From an uncultured Marinoscillum sp. (GTDB lineage: Bacteria; Bacteroidota; Bacteroidia; Cytophagales; MED-G16): a DNA stretch of 64,000 bases. The notes beneath the pieces were generated by a model. The model saw only the letters and a list, made by a program, of their open reading frames with translations. It made no database searches and had not been told where the DNA came from. The stretch is taken from positions 1-64,000 of the forward strand of contig CACOMW010000001.1 in NCBI GenBank assembly GCA_902628365.1, given 5' to 3'. Shown here one piece after another: positions 40,595-45,583 of this stretch (position 1 is the stretch's first letter; each line of letters starts with the position of its first letter). The translations under genes and the position numbers were made by a program.

Positions 40595-41644
40595 ATGAAA
40601 AAAGTACATGATAAATTAAATATTTTGATTGTTTGTACTGTAGTAGCAATTGCTGCTGTAGGTTATCTTCTTATTCAGACTGGTACTATTGATCCGTCAA
40701 TGGGTGCTGGTTCAGGTATTACTAGTATTAAGAAAGCTGAGAAGTATTCTGAGAAAAATACTATTGCTGTTGAATTAGAAGGTGAGGAGATTCAGGAAGT
40801 TTTACAAAATGAAGACTTCATGAAAATGATTGCAACTCCTGAATTTGCTAAACTTGTTGAGAGTGATGAGTTTTTAAAGGTCCTTGATGATCCTGTATTC
40901 AGTATTGTTGCTGATGTTATGGGAAATGATGATTTGATGACCTCAAATGAGCAAGAACCATATACAACAAGAGACGGTAAGTCTGGAGGAGGTTCTGGAG
41001 GAGGTATTGGCGAAGATGATTTAAGACAAGGAACTTCTAGTTTATCTAATTTTAATCAAGATGGTGGAGCTGGAAGATCAATATCTTCAAGTGGTGGAAG
41101 AGAATTAGGTGACAATAGTAATAAAACTTCAGATAGTAGGGGTACTCCTGGTAAGATGTTAATGAAACTAGGAGAATTTCAAAAGTTTATGAAAGGTGCT
41201 GAATTACAAAAGTTTATGAAAGGAGCAGAATTTCAAAAGTTTATGAAGAGTGGTGCAGATTTTCAAAAATTTGCTAAAGATGCTGCTTTTCAGAAGTTTA
41301 TGAAAGGTGCTGAATTTCAGAAGTTTATGAAGGGAGCTGAATTTCAGAAGTTTATGAAAGATGCTCAACTTCAGAAGTTTATGAAAGGTGCTGATCTTCA
41401 GAAATTTGCTAAGGGAGCTGATCTTCAGAAGTTTGCTAAAGGAGCTGATTTTGCTAAATTTGCTAAAAATGGAGACTTTATGAAGTTCATGAAAGGTGCT
41501 GATTTTCAAAAATTTATGAAAAGTGGTGCTTATTCTAAATTTGCAAAAGGTTCATCTTTTCAGAAGTTTATGAAAGGAGCAGAATTTCAGAAGTTTATGA
41601 AAGGAGCTGAATTTCAAAAATTTGCTAAAGGTGCTGTAAATTAG
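40595..41644 (+). CDS. Membrane-anchored nonapeptide-repeat protein of unknown function
   Basis: N-terminal TM 'LNILIVCTVVAIAAVGYLLIQTG', Gly/Ser-rich linker, then 17 tandem GAEFQKFMK-like units. Confidence 0.9.
   Translation: MKKVHDKLNILIVCTVVAIAAVGYLLIQTGTIDPSMGAGSGITSIKKAEKYSEKNTIAVELEGEEIQEVLQNEDFMKMIATPEFAKLVESDEFLKVLDDPVFSIVADVMGNDDLMTSNEQEPYTTRDGKSGGGSGGGIGEDDLRQGTSSLSNFNQDGGAGRSISSSGGRELGDNSNKTSDSRGTPGKMLMKLGEFQKFMKGAELQKFMKGAEFQKFMKSGADFQKFAKDAAFQKFMKGAEFQKFMKGAEFQKFMKDAQLQKFMKGADLQKFAKGADLQKFAKGADFAKFAKNGDFMKFMKGADFQKFMKSGAYSKFAKGSSFQKFMKGAEFQKFMKGAEFQKFAKGAVN
40781..40915 (+). repeat. Five degenerate acidic nonapeptide units within the repeat protein
   Basis: GEEIQEVLQ / NEDFMKMIA / TPEFAKLVE / SDEFLKVLD / DPVFSIVAD: 9-residue period with the same E-F-x-K phase as the C-terminal array. 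Confidence 0.65.
41168..41629 (+). repeat. 17 tandem ~27-bp coding repeats (consensus GAEFQKFMK)
   Basis: Counted from the translation; all units are 9 aa except unit 4 (SGADFQKFAK), which has one extra residue. Confidence 0.95.
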
Positions 41645-41668: not shown

Positions 41669-41707
41669 AAAAAAGGAGAAAACATTAATTTTTCTCCTTT
41701 TTTTTTT
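41669..41707 (+). terminator. Intrinsic terminator after repeat-protein gene
   Basis: aaaaaaggagaaaa-cattaa-tttttctcctttttt hairpin running into a poly-T tract. Confidence 0.8.
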
Positions 41708-41730: not shown

Positions 41731-44700
41731 ATGAAAAAATTATCCATTCTATTATCGTTTATTTTCTTTTTTTATTTTAATAGTTCTTTTTCTCAAATGG
41801 ATAAATTAGAAATAGAAAATTTTGATATTGTTTCTATGGGAATTGGTGAAGCATTTGTTTTACCTCATGCAGCAAGATGTGCTCATAGTGCTCTTAATTT
41901 TCATAAAAAGTTATTTGACTACGAACCAAGAGATAAAATTCATGTTATGATTCAAGATTTTGGAGATTATGGAAATGGAGGAGCAACCTCAATTCCTAAT
42001 AACATGGTTTCAACTTGTATTTCACCAATGAATTATTCTTTTGAGTCAAGTATAGCTGGCGAAAGAGTATTTGCTATCATGAATCACGAACTTGTACATA
42101 TAGTTGCGCTAGATAATTATTCAAAAACAGATGTTTTTTATAGAAAACTTTTTGCTGGAAAAGTTAGAAATACAAACGACCATCCTGTTTCTATGTTTTA
42201 TAGCTATCTCACTAATCCAAGATATTATTCTCCTAGATGGTTCCATGAAGGTATTGCTGTATTTATTGAAACTTGGATGGATGGTGGAAAGGGAAATGCT
42301 TTAGGTAGTTATGATGAAATGTTTTTTAGAACTAGAACACTTGAAAACTCTAGGATTTATTCAGCTCAAGGATTGGAATCAGAAGGTACTTCTGCAGATT
42401 TTATGTCTAAAGCTAATTCATACTACTATGGAACAAGATTTATGAGTTATGTAGCTCACCAATATGGACCTACTAATTTAATTGAATGGATAAAAAGAAA
42501 AGATCAAAGCAAACGTGGGTTTGCATCCAATTTTAAAAACGTATTTGGTTTATCAATTAGTAAAGCTTGGGATACTTGGATTGATTTTGAACGTTCCTTT
42601 CAGGATGAAAATATTAATAGACTTAAAAAATTTCCTGTTACTCAATATGAACCTATTACTGAAAAAGTATTAGGTGGTGTTTCTCATGCATTTCATGATA
42701 AAAAAAGAAATAAAATTTATGTTGCAGTTAATTATCCTGGCAAAGTTCCTCATATTGCTAGTATTGATTTAGAAACAGGTGAGATTGATAGACTTAAAGA
42801 TGTAAAGGGACCAGCTTTATTTAATGTTGCTTCACTTACCTACGATGAAAAAAATGATCTTCTTATATATTCAACTGATAACAATGCAAATAGAGATTTA
42901 AATAGTTACAATTTAAAAACTGGTGAAACAAAATTGTTACAAAAAAATGAACATATTGGTGATTTAGCTTTTAATAAAAAAGATGAATCTTTATGGGGTA
43001 TTAGACACCTAAATGGTTACAATACAATCGTTAAGATACCAAAATATAATTCTGAGTCTCCAAATGATTATTATACAAATTGGAATCAAAAATATACATT
43101 ACCATTTGGTCATGATATTTTTGATATAGATATTTCACCTGATGGTAAAAGTTTAAGTGCAGCAGTTGCTGATTACTTTGGCAATCAATACCTTCATATA
43201 TATGATATTGAATCTTTTGATAAAGGAGGTAAAGAAGATATAGTTTATAAGGAGGTTTTTAATTTTGATGTTTCTTCACCTCAAAGTTTTCGATATACCG
43301 AAGATGGTAATTATCTTTTTGGTTCTTCTTATTATACAGGTGTGAGTAATATATGGAGAGTAGATGCAAATACTTATCAAGCAGATGATATAGATTTAAT
43401 TTCTAATGCAGTTACAGGGTATTTTCGACCTATTCAAATAGATAAAGATAGAATTTTTGCTTTTAGATATACTAGTGATGGTTTTCTTCCTGTTTACATA
43501 CCTAATAATACTGTTCTAGAAATTGAAACCATTAAATATTTAGGAAATGAAACTATCAAAAAACATCCAGAACTTAAAGAATGGAGGAATGAATTGCCTA
43601 CTCCTCAGACAGTCAATTTAGATGAAATAACTATTGAAAAAAACGGTGTTTATCTTCCTAGAAAGGAAATGAAATTAAATTATGCTTACCCAATAGTGGT
43701 AGGTTATAAAGATAATATCGGTATAGGTTACAAATTCAATTTTGAAGATCCTTTTAGCTTTAGATCATTTGATCTGTCATTTTCTTTTACGCCAAAACAA
43801 TGGAAAAATCAACTAAGTGATGGAAATGCAACAATTGATAATGACGAACAATTTCATGGTTCTTTAAATTTTTCTACAAGTAAAATTGGTGGCTTTTTAT
43901 CTGGGAGTTATGATTTCTTTGCACATTATAACAAAGACAATTTTTATGATTTATTTGGCCCCACCAAAAGATCAAGAAAAGGATTATTATTTGGTTTTAA
44001 TAATAAAAAGTCTCTGATATGGGATAATCCAAAAAACTTAGATTTAACCACTGGTTTTAGAGGTTTTTATGGTTTAGATCAATCGCCAGATTTTCAGCAA
44101 ATTGATAATTTTGATAAAGATTATGATACAAATCTATTCTATGATATTTTTTCCTCATTAACTTATAGAAATATTAGAAGATCTGTAGGTGCAGTAGATG
44201 GAGAAAAAGGGGTTAATATGTCATTAAATGCTTCATCTTCAGTTTCTGAAGGAAATTTTTATCCAACCTTTACTGGAAATTTTGATTTTGGTATACAGCT
44301 ACCAGTTAATCATACTTCTCTTTGGTTTAGAACTTCCTCAGGAAATTCATTTAGCAAAAAAGTAAATCCATTTACTAGATTTGGATTTGCAGCGTTTGGT
44401 AATAATTATATAGACTATTTATCTTCAAAAAGATATAGGGGTACTTATTCTTTTCCTGGGGTAAGCTTTGATTCAGGTAGAAATATTATTGCAAAAAACT
44501 TTTTTAAAACTACAGCTGAATTGTTGCTTCCTCCATTAAGATATAGAAAAGTAGGGTTCTTTAACTTTTTTGCATCATGGTCTCATCCAACAATTTTTGC
44601 AAGTTTTCTTACTGCAAAAGATATTAATATCTCTGGTAATGATGTTAATCAGAACTTTTATAATATAGGATTTCAATTGGATACAAGACTTGTAATGTTT

Positions 44701-44802
44701 TCTCATCTAGCAGCAACTTTATCGGTAGGTTGGGCAAAAGCATATGATTTGGATGATAGTAGCTTGGCTTATGATGAATGGATGGTTTCTTTAAAATTTT
44801 AG
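41731..44802 (+). CDS. Secreted gluzincin-like metalloprotease fused to beta-propeller-like and C-terminal barrel-like regions
   Basis: Signal peptide; HELVH zinc motif and downstream 'WFHEGIAVF'; central WD40/TolB-like segments ('DIDISPDGKSLSAAV'); C-terminal alternating beta segments. Confidence 0.7.
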   Translation: MKKLSILLSFIFFFYFNSSFSQMDKLEIENFDIVSMGIGEAFVLPHAARCAHSALNFHKKLFDYEPRDKIHVMIQDFGDYGNGGATSIPNNMVSTCISPMNYSFESSIAGERVFAIMNHELVHIVALDNYSKTDVFYRKLFAGKVRNTNDHPVSMFYSYLTNPRYYSPRWFHEGIAVFIETWMDGGKGNALGSYDEMFFRTRTLENSRIYSAQGLESEGTSADFMSKANSYYYGTRFMSYVAHQYGPTNLIEWIKRKDQSKRGFASNFKNVFGLSISKAWDTWIDFERSFQDENINRLKKFPVTQYEPITEKVLGGVSHAFHDKKRNKIYVAVNYPGKVPHIASIDLETGEIDRLKDVKGPALFNVASLTYDEKNDLLIYSTDNNANRDLNSYNLKTGETKLLQKNEHIGDLAFNKKDESLWGIRHLNGYNTIVKIPKYNSESPNDYYTNWNQKYTLPFGHDIFDIDISPDGKSLSAAVADYFGNQYLHIYDIESFDKGGKEDIVYKEVFNFDVSSPQSFRYTEDGNYLFGSSYYTGVSNIWRVDANTYQADDIDLISNAVTGYFRPIQIDKDRIFAFRYTSDGFLPVYIPNNTVLEIETIKYLGNETIKKHPELKEWRNELPTPQTVNLDEITIEKNGVYLPRKEMKLNYAYPIVVGYKDNIGIGYKFNFEDPFSFRSFDLSFSFTPKQWKNQLSDGNATIDNDEQFHGSLNFSTSKIGGFLSGSYDFFAHYNKDNFYDLFGPTKRSRKGLLFGFNNKKSLIWDNPKNLDLTTGFRGFYGLDQSPDFQQIDNFDKDYDTNLFYDIFSSLTYRNIRRSVGAVDGEKGVNMSLNASSSVSEGNFYPTFTGNFDFGIQLPVNHTSLWFRTSSGNSFSKKVNPFTRFGFAAFGNNYIDYLSSKRYRGTYSFPGVSFDSGRNIIAKNFFKTTAELLLPPLRYRKVGFFNFFASWSHPTIFASFLTAKDINISGNDVNQNFYNIGFQLDTRLVMFSHLAATLSVGWAKAYDLDDSSLAYDEWMVSLKF

Positions 44803-44806
44803 ATGA

Positions 44807-45583
44807 ATGAAAAAAATATTTTTAGATAGTATCTACGGTAGCATAATGGCTACACTTCTTTATCTTGTTTTATTCTATCCACTGGTATTAATTCATAGAT
44901 TTGATTGGTATGATATGTTGCTTGTGACTCTATCTATCTCACCTGGAATTTTTATTATGTTTTTTATTTATCATTCTGATGAATATGATAAGGAGCCAGT
45001 ATGGCTTCTTGCGACTTGCTTTATTCTTGGAGCAATCAATTTACATTTTGATGTAGATATTCTTGAGTTTGTTTTTTCATATATAAATGTTGAAAATAAT
45101 TTTTTACGAGTAGGAGGTGAAGCATTAACTGTTTCTATAACTGAAGAAATGTTAAAATTTATTGTGGTATTCTTAATTATCTTTCCAAATAAAAGTTTTG
45201 ATGAGCCATTTGATGGGATTGTTTATTCAGTATTTGTTGGTATGGGTTTTGCTACAGCAGAAAATATTACTTACGTTTTACAAGGATCTTCATCAGTTGC
45301 ATTTTTTAGAATGTTGACAGCTGTTCCAGCTCATTTTGCTTTTGCTGTTATTATGGGATATTATTTAGGTAAAGCAAAAACTTGTAAGGTTGGAAAAAAA
45401 TGGTTTTATGTATTTTTGTCGCTTTTTGTATCAATAACCATGCACGCATTTTATGATTATTTTTTGTTCTTGGATTTTGTGCCAGGTATATGGCTAGGAG
45501 GTGTTGTTACGTTAGGTGTTGCAATTCTTTTTGCTAGAATGGCAATTTTGGAGCATCTTGCTGCCTCTCCTTTTAAAAAATAA
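44807..45583 (+). CDS. PrsW-family intramembrane metalloprotease
   Basis: 'SITEEMLKF' EE motif, 'EPFDGIVYSVFVGMGFATAENITYVL', 'AVPAHFAFAVIMGYYLGKAK', multi-TM. Confidence 0.88.
   Translation: MKKIFLDSIYGSIMATLLYLVLFYPLVLIHRFDWYDMLLVTLSISPGIFIMFFIYHSDEYDKEPVWLLATCFILGAINLHFDVDILEFVFSYINVENNFLRVGGEALTVSITEEMLKFIVVFLIIFPNKSFDEPFDGIVYSVFVGMGFATAENITYVLQGSSSVAFFRMLTAVPAHFAFAVIMGYYLGKAKTCKVGKKWFYVFLSLFVSITMHAFYDYFLFLDFVPGIWLGGVVTLGVAILFARMAILEHLAASPFKK

Follow-up and report, generated by a model that had tools for sequence, protein, structure and literature searches.

A nonapeptide-array membrane protein encoded beside a PrsW-family protease looks like an undescribed cell-envelope stress sensor of Bacteroidota

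What could a membrane-anchored protein with a long array of one repeated nine-residue unit do for the cell that carries it? The window, that is, the whole stretch of 64,000 nucleotides analysed here, belongs to a 1.28-Mb, 61%-complete genome assembly, and the nearest named relative is the uncultured Marinoscillum sp. assembly AG-343-C10 (locus L020). The gene in question (40595..41644, forward strand, as are all features given below) encodes 349 residues from an ATG start: an N-terminal transmembrane (TM) segment, a conserved anchor, a Gly/Ser linker and an array of 17 units. The original prediction for this DNA did not consider the gene neighbourhood, which holds most of the functional information.

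The TM segment (40622..40678, residues 10-28) has a hydropathy of 2.54 and is preceded by only about nine residues, which carry Lys. A single TM segment with a Lys-bearing N-terminus and a periplasmic array had been proposed, and this topology is borne out both by hydropathy and by relatives in which an anti-sigma domain, cytoplasmic by function, lies N-terminal to the same TM segment; the anti-sigma fused form thus places the array outside the inner membrane. A TM-proximal motif, GSGITSIKKAEKY (40709..40747, residues 39-51), follows within the most conserved segment of the family, recurs in the homologs on viral contigs and is a candidate region for PrsW recognition or cleavage. Further downstream, and overlooked originally, four degenerate nine-residue units can be read from the sequence (40808..40915, residues 72-107; NEDFMKMIA, TPEFAKLVE, SDEFLKVLD and DPVFSIVAD), and these belong to the segment best conserved among the relatives. 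A Gly/Ser-rich linker (40925..41167, residues 111-191), which was seen in the window's own family only, leads to the array.

The array itself (41168..41629, residues 192-345) was recovered over the span first described, with its 17 units, and the odd length of unit 4 is explained by one additional residue, Ser219, that precedes it. Tandem Repeats Finder reports it as the strongest tandem array of the window (period 27, 17.0 copies, 41174-41636). Unit positions 6 (K), 7 (F) and 9 (K) are the same in all 17 units; position 8 is M in 11 and A in 6, position 4 is F in 12, L in 4 and Y in 1, and position 3 is E in 7 and D in 6. At a lag of nine residues the self-identity reaches 0.35, while 2000 residue shuffles gave no more than 0.14 at any lag from 3 to 19. 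Between units dS is 1.34 and dN 0.24 (ratio 0.18), and in comparison with the sister genome the dN/dS of the array is 0.10. The array and anchor are under purifying selection. In the array, the synonymous sites have diverged strongly among units while the protein sequence was retained, which indicates that the array is old and selected. Together with the homologous arrays carried by independent assemblies, the lag-nine identity and the dS and dN values argue against fresh slippage and against an assembly artefact, which the original prediction had named as grounds for abandoning it.

The best conserved part of the family is the stretch after the TM segment and not the array. It reads GSxIxGVxKAxKY, about ten variable residues, LxGxxxQxLLQNDxFQ and then the first repeat units. 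Homologs occur in the window's own family (G001, G002, G005, G009 and G014) and in other families of the order (G032, twice in G105, G228 and G916), and, in a partial sampling of two other classes of Bacteroidota, in 25 of 196 genomes (class of G839) and 7 of 149 (class of G630). Four further order-level matches (G033, G088, G048 and G102) proved on inspection to be unrelated repeat proteins.

Long arrays contain 16-43 units, and G228 (L074) has few. The family-wide unit consensus is [SND][PAE][DES]F x [EKRQ] L [MA] x, with F at position 4 in 82% and L at position 7 in 70% of the units; since units were selected by demanding a hydrophobic residue at these two positions, only the choice of residue there is informative. 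The unit-final residue varies (A 29%, K 22%), and so does charge. A basic array, as originally described, holds for the window's family, with a mean of +1.1 per unit, and fails as a general property, the long arrays of other families ranging from -1.2 to +0.1. Compared across families, the strongly basic unit of the window is a local variant.

In different genera, the arrays of G001 (L020, residues about 239-262) and G014 (L007) share a hydrophobic insert of the GEFNFAITLGVLVAAPVIRSAFF type (hydropathy 1.9). The window, G002 and G005 lack the insert and have a 10-residue unit at its site. It is possible that the insert forms a second membrane segment or an internal sequence that fills a groove.

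The structure of the array was predicted in two ways. An AlphaFold model of 13 units, based on a 12-row alignment with all rows drawn from the window and L020, has a pLDDT of 74.5 and a pTM of 0.64; of the five models two exceeded 67 and three stayed below 48. It consists of 13 separate helices, six to eight residues each, broken at every unit boundary. A full-length prediction from two aligned sequences is poor (pLDDT 38) and breaks the helices at the same places. Among the relatives, unit position 1 is Ser, Asn or Asp, and position 2 is Pro in 26% of the family-averaged units and in about 90% in G839 and G695; Pro at position 2 with one of these residues at position 1 is a classical helix start.

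What lies next to the gene is more telling. After the array gene come, on the same strand and with gaps of 86 and 4 bases, a gene for a peptidase with propeller and barrel regions (41731..44802, 1023 aa) and a gene for a PrsW-family intramembrane protease (44807..45583, 258 aa). A signal peptide is recognisable by eye in the peptidase, which further has an HExxH region as well as propeller-like and Omp85-like barrel regions; the HExxH motif and a downstream Glu are near-invariant in 26 homologs, and its relatives give sub-threshold Pfam matches, in order, to a peptidase MA domain, a propeller and an Omp85-type barrel. In G002 the peptidase gene (L077:8809-12029) is split into two overlapping open frames, either by an assembly error or by a frameshift. 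The PrsW protein matches PF13367 with an E-value of 1.5e-32, although its 151.8 bits are below the NCBIfam equivalog cut-off for PrsW of 225 bits, and EExxK, EN and two His are near-invariant in 26 homologs. With a PF13367 protease in the same cluster and its EExxK and His residues intact, the locus fits a PrsW-linked proteolysis module. A terminator-like hairpin with a long T-run, a consensus match, lies between the array and peptidase genes (41669..41703) inside the otherwise co-directional cluster. In a comparison of 59 relatives, 7 have both the array protein and the peptidase, 51 have neither, and one has the peptidase only, at a contig end.

The clearest indication of function comes from the two other classes. 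Loci were scored with local profiles for the sigma factor, the anti-sigma factor, the anchor with array, the peptidase and PrsW. At 24 loci (L068-L071 and L124-L143) the order is ECF sigma, anti-sigma, anchor with array, peptidase and PrsW, all on one strand, and every gene missing from any of these lies beyond a contig end; the ECF sigma gene, for instance, is present in 23, and the 24th locus starts at a contig end. The anti-sigma domain is fused N-terminally to the TM segment, anchor and array in 17 of the 24, and is encoded by a separate adjacent gene in the other 7 (L068, L069 and L138-L142). By eye, the same five-gene layout is also found in L176-L178 and L180. Directly upstream of the sigma gene, three loci encode a short protein (L068:9997-10422, L070:12818-13234 and L071:12303-12704), whose EELFTNMVKYN motif suggests, by eye, a likeness to serine-kinase-type anti-sigma regulators.

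The Cytophagales loci, including the window, have the array, peptidase and PrsW genes only, and in one copy (L072) the array gene directly adjoins PrsW and the peptidase is absent. An RsiW-like anti-sigma domain in the cytoplasm is lacking in the window protein, whose TM segment is preceded by about nine residues. The window locus, like the sigma loci retrieved from its family, yielded no sigma or anti-sigma gene of the module, and a search for a cognate ECF sigma in the 61%-complete genome gave an RpoD-like match only. As possible orphaned partners, the ECF sigma genes at other sites of six Cytophagales genomes were checked and rejected: they score at most 124 bits against the module sigma profile, and no module-type anti-sigma gene was found beside them.

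Taken together, the array protein is probably a membrane-anchored periplasmic sensor or shield of a PrsW-type regulated intramembrane proteolysis module, and it looks like an undescribed cell-envelope stress sensor. The PrsW gene is the second one after the array gene, and the conserved order of the 24 loci, with the anti-sigma fused or adjacent, argues for this reading, as do the near-invariant catalytic residues of the PrsW and peptidase homologs, the joint occurrence of array protein and peptidase among the 59 relatives, the L072 copy and the purifying selection on array and anchor. The array would be a row of short amphipathic helices with a hydrophobic binding partner, which may be the membrane surface, a client of the barrel protein or unfolded outer-membrane proteins. 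In the unstressed cell the array would keep PrsW away from the TM-proximal segment, whose motif may be the PrsW contact. Under envelope stress it would be withdrawn or trimmed, through ligand binding or by the HExxH partner, so that the outer-membrane-type peptidase may be either the input or the trimming enzyme. PrsW would then make the first cut in the anchor. In species with the sigma factor, the anti-sigma would be destroyed after this cut and the sigma released. No sigma or anti-sigma partner was found in the window's lineage, so the effect of the cut would there be to free the array or to adjust its level, presumably with no direct transcription output.

Three observations count against a sensor or shield. 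The first is the missing anti-sigma domain of the window protein, along with the sigma and anti-sigma genes not found at its locus; the second is the terminator-like hairpin between the array gene and the next. The third is that L139-L142 keep the gene order with little or no nine-residue array in the anchor protein, so the module can do without the array. Their anchor proteins have GREVGKEV-type, ERAGLERAD-type or about 12-residue repeats instead, the last in L142, and these other repeat types suggest that the extracytoplasmic part can be exchanged.

The array could also act as a periplasmic chaperone, its short helices forming a Met/Phe-rich, STI1-like groove that holds unfolded outer-membrane proteins, with the sigma link reading the occupancy of the groove. 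This idea overlaps with the sensor reading, and we regard it as possible but rather doubtful. STI1 domains are made of short helices, and TM segments bind in their Met-rich groove (PMC13083928); the C-terminus of the partner protein is barrel-like. Further, the array family resembles STI1/ubiquilin/HOP DP domains (PF17830, PF23195) in its consecutive short helices and Met-rich hydrophobic faces and, in the relatives, in its Asn/Ser-Pro unit starts and weak summed profile matches. The STI1-HOP_DP and/or UBQLN1 models give totals above the cut-off in G032, G839, G695 and G630, and neither of two reversed controls matched them. However, these whole-protein scores add up weak matches, of which hardly any passes as a single stretch, and the reversed controls matched unrelated families at E-values near 1e-8; the controls reveal that summed repeat scores are inflated, which makes the likeness insecure, and we therefore do not assign the arrays to the STI1/ubiquilin families. 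Unlike STI1 domains, the array family keeps a strict nine-residue period over 17-43 units and has no reliable single-domain match, and a Foldseek search of PDB with the moderately confident 13-unit model gave nothing at E <= 0.001 (best E 5.7).

The window protein itself has no STI1 match. The original view that it is unlike known repeats was upheld: it gave sub-threshold noise only against Pfam, NCBIfam and PDB sequences, and neither TPR nor any other catalogued repeat exceeded its Pfam or NCBIfam cut-off. PDB matches to coagulation factor V, Ebola GP2 and an antibody were discarded as low-complexity noise.

Another explanation sees PrsW as a maturation protease. By cutting the TM anchor it would set the array free as a soluble protein of the periplasm or cell surface (a chaperone, filament or scaffold), which would work with the outer-membrane peptidase and have no part in signalling. 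This would suit the Cytophagales, whose loci yielded neither a sigma nor an anti-sigma partner, and the hairpin after the array gene could permit its separate and higher expression. There is also a precedent in myxosortase, an example of surface-protein sorting by a bacterial intramembrane protease (PMC11980579). Release alone, however, leaves the fusion of anchor and array to an anti-sigma domain in 17 loci unexplained, and for the family as a whole we hold this explanation to be unlikely. It is stronger in the window's lineage, where, within the reach of the data, the sigma/anti-sigma half is missing.

The original prediction favoured one long helix with a bifacial repeat of 18 residues, a basic rod that would polymerise or bind an anionic envelope component. 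The units of the window's family are indeed amphipathic and Lys-rich, but both predicted structures break the helix at each unit, so that the AlphaFold check returned separate short helices and no continuous rod. The Pro and N-cap residues with which the units of the relatives start, the drift in unit length (about 12 in L142 in place of 9) and the lack of charge conservation across families also speak against it, and a rod now seems very improbable. Equally hard to credit is a peptide precursor cut after the unit-final Lys into many amphipathic nonapeptides with antimicrobial or signalling roles: K ends all 17 units of the window and two proteases are encoded next door, but that Lys is not conserved across the family, arrays are fused to anti-sigma domains, and no exporter was noticed in the operon.

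Anchors of this kind are also found on putative viral contigs. A scan with the anchor profile found four (L087-L090), and a second scan returned the same four; no anchor homolog was found in annotated phages. The genes (L087:5007-5423, L088:947-1288, L089:4995-5369 and L090:4206-4580) encode proteins of 114-139 aa, with a TM segment, no array and a GSAIKGVQKANKYKIEDDTEVELVGE-type segment that is almost the same as in the cellular copy of G228. In L089 the anchor gene comes after those for an endolysin-type amidase and a membrane protein, and PHROGs matches on this contig include an amidase and a ribonucleotide reductase. L088 also carries, by eye, a TonB-receptor-like gene. One possibility is that the viral anchors are decoys. 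As a tentative and rather speculative extension, the arrays may define a new class of periplasmic stress sensors: nonapeptide arrays of variable length, built of tandem short helices, would form the extracytoplasmic domain of the anti-sigma factors in Bacteroidota that have the five-gene module (ECF, PrsW and outer-membrane peptidase). Phages of these bacteria would carry anchors without an array, which may serve as decoy substrates for the host PrsW pathway or inhibit it.

PrsW is best known from Bacillus. In B. subtilis it makes the first cut in the anti-sigma RsiW (PMC3498285, PMC5358783, PMC10202637), and the SigW-RsiW-PrsW-RasP system shares with the present one an ECF sigma, a single-TM anti-sigma and PrsW as first-cut protease; in the window's relatives, too, the anti-sigma domain is N-terminal to the TM segment, and there the genes are contiguous. 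In contrast to that system, the extracytoplasmic part is here a long array of short helices with a conserved anchor, an outer-membrane-type HExxH peptidase is part of the operon in a Gram-negative Bacteroidota setting, and the window's lineage has no sigma or anti-sigma partner that could be found. The RseA-RseB-DegS-RseP (sigma-E) pathway of E. coli likewise relays envelope stress by stepwise anti-sigma proteolysis, with a periplasmic domain and outer-membrane proteins as a likely theme, but its first-cut protease is of a different family and it has no array. For the shield, the closest likeness is RsiV (B. subtilis sigma-V), where amphipathic helices after the TM segment shield the first cleavage site until a ligand binds (PMC6066255); in RsiV, however, the helices number two and signal peptidase is the cleaving enzyme, while the array family has tens of helices and PrsW encoded alongside.

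Sigma/anti-sigma/PrsW signalling is thus already known. In the open literature searched, we found neither a PrsW/anti-sigma pathway in Bacteroidota nor a description of the array sensor, its peptidase partner or the viral anchors. The loci described here provide a repeat family that has no Pfam model of its own and a defined module of five genes that comes with the presumed substrate of PrsW, together with genomes in which the pathway can be directly tested. Further, the anchors on viral contigs suggest that this pathway may matter during infection.
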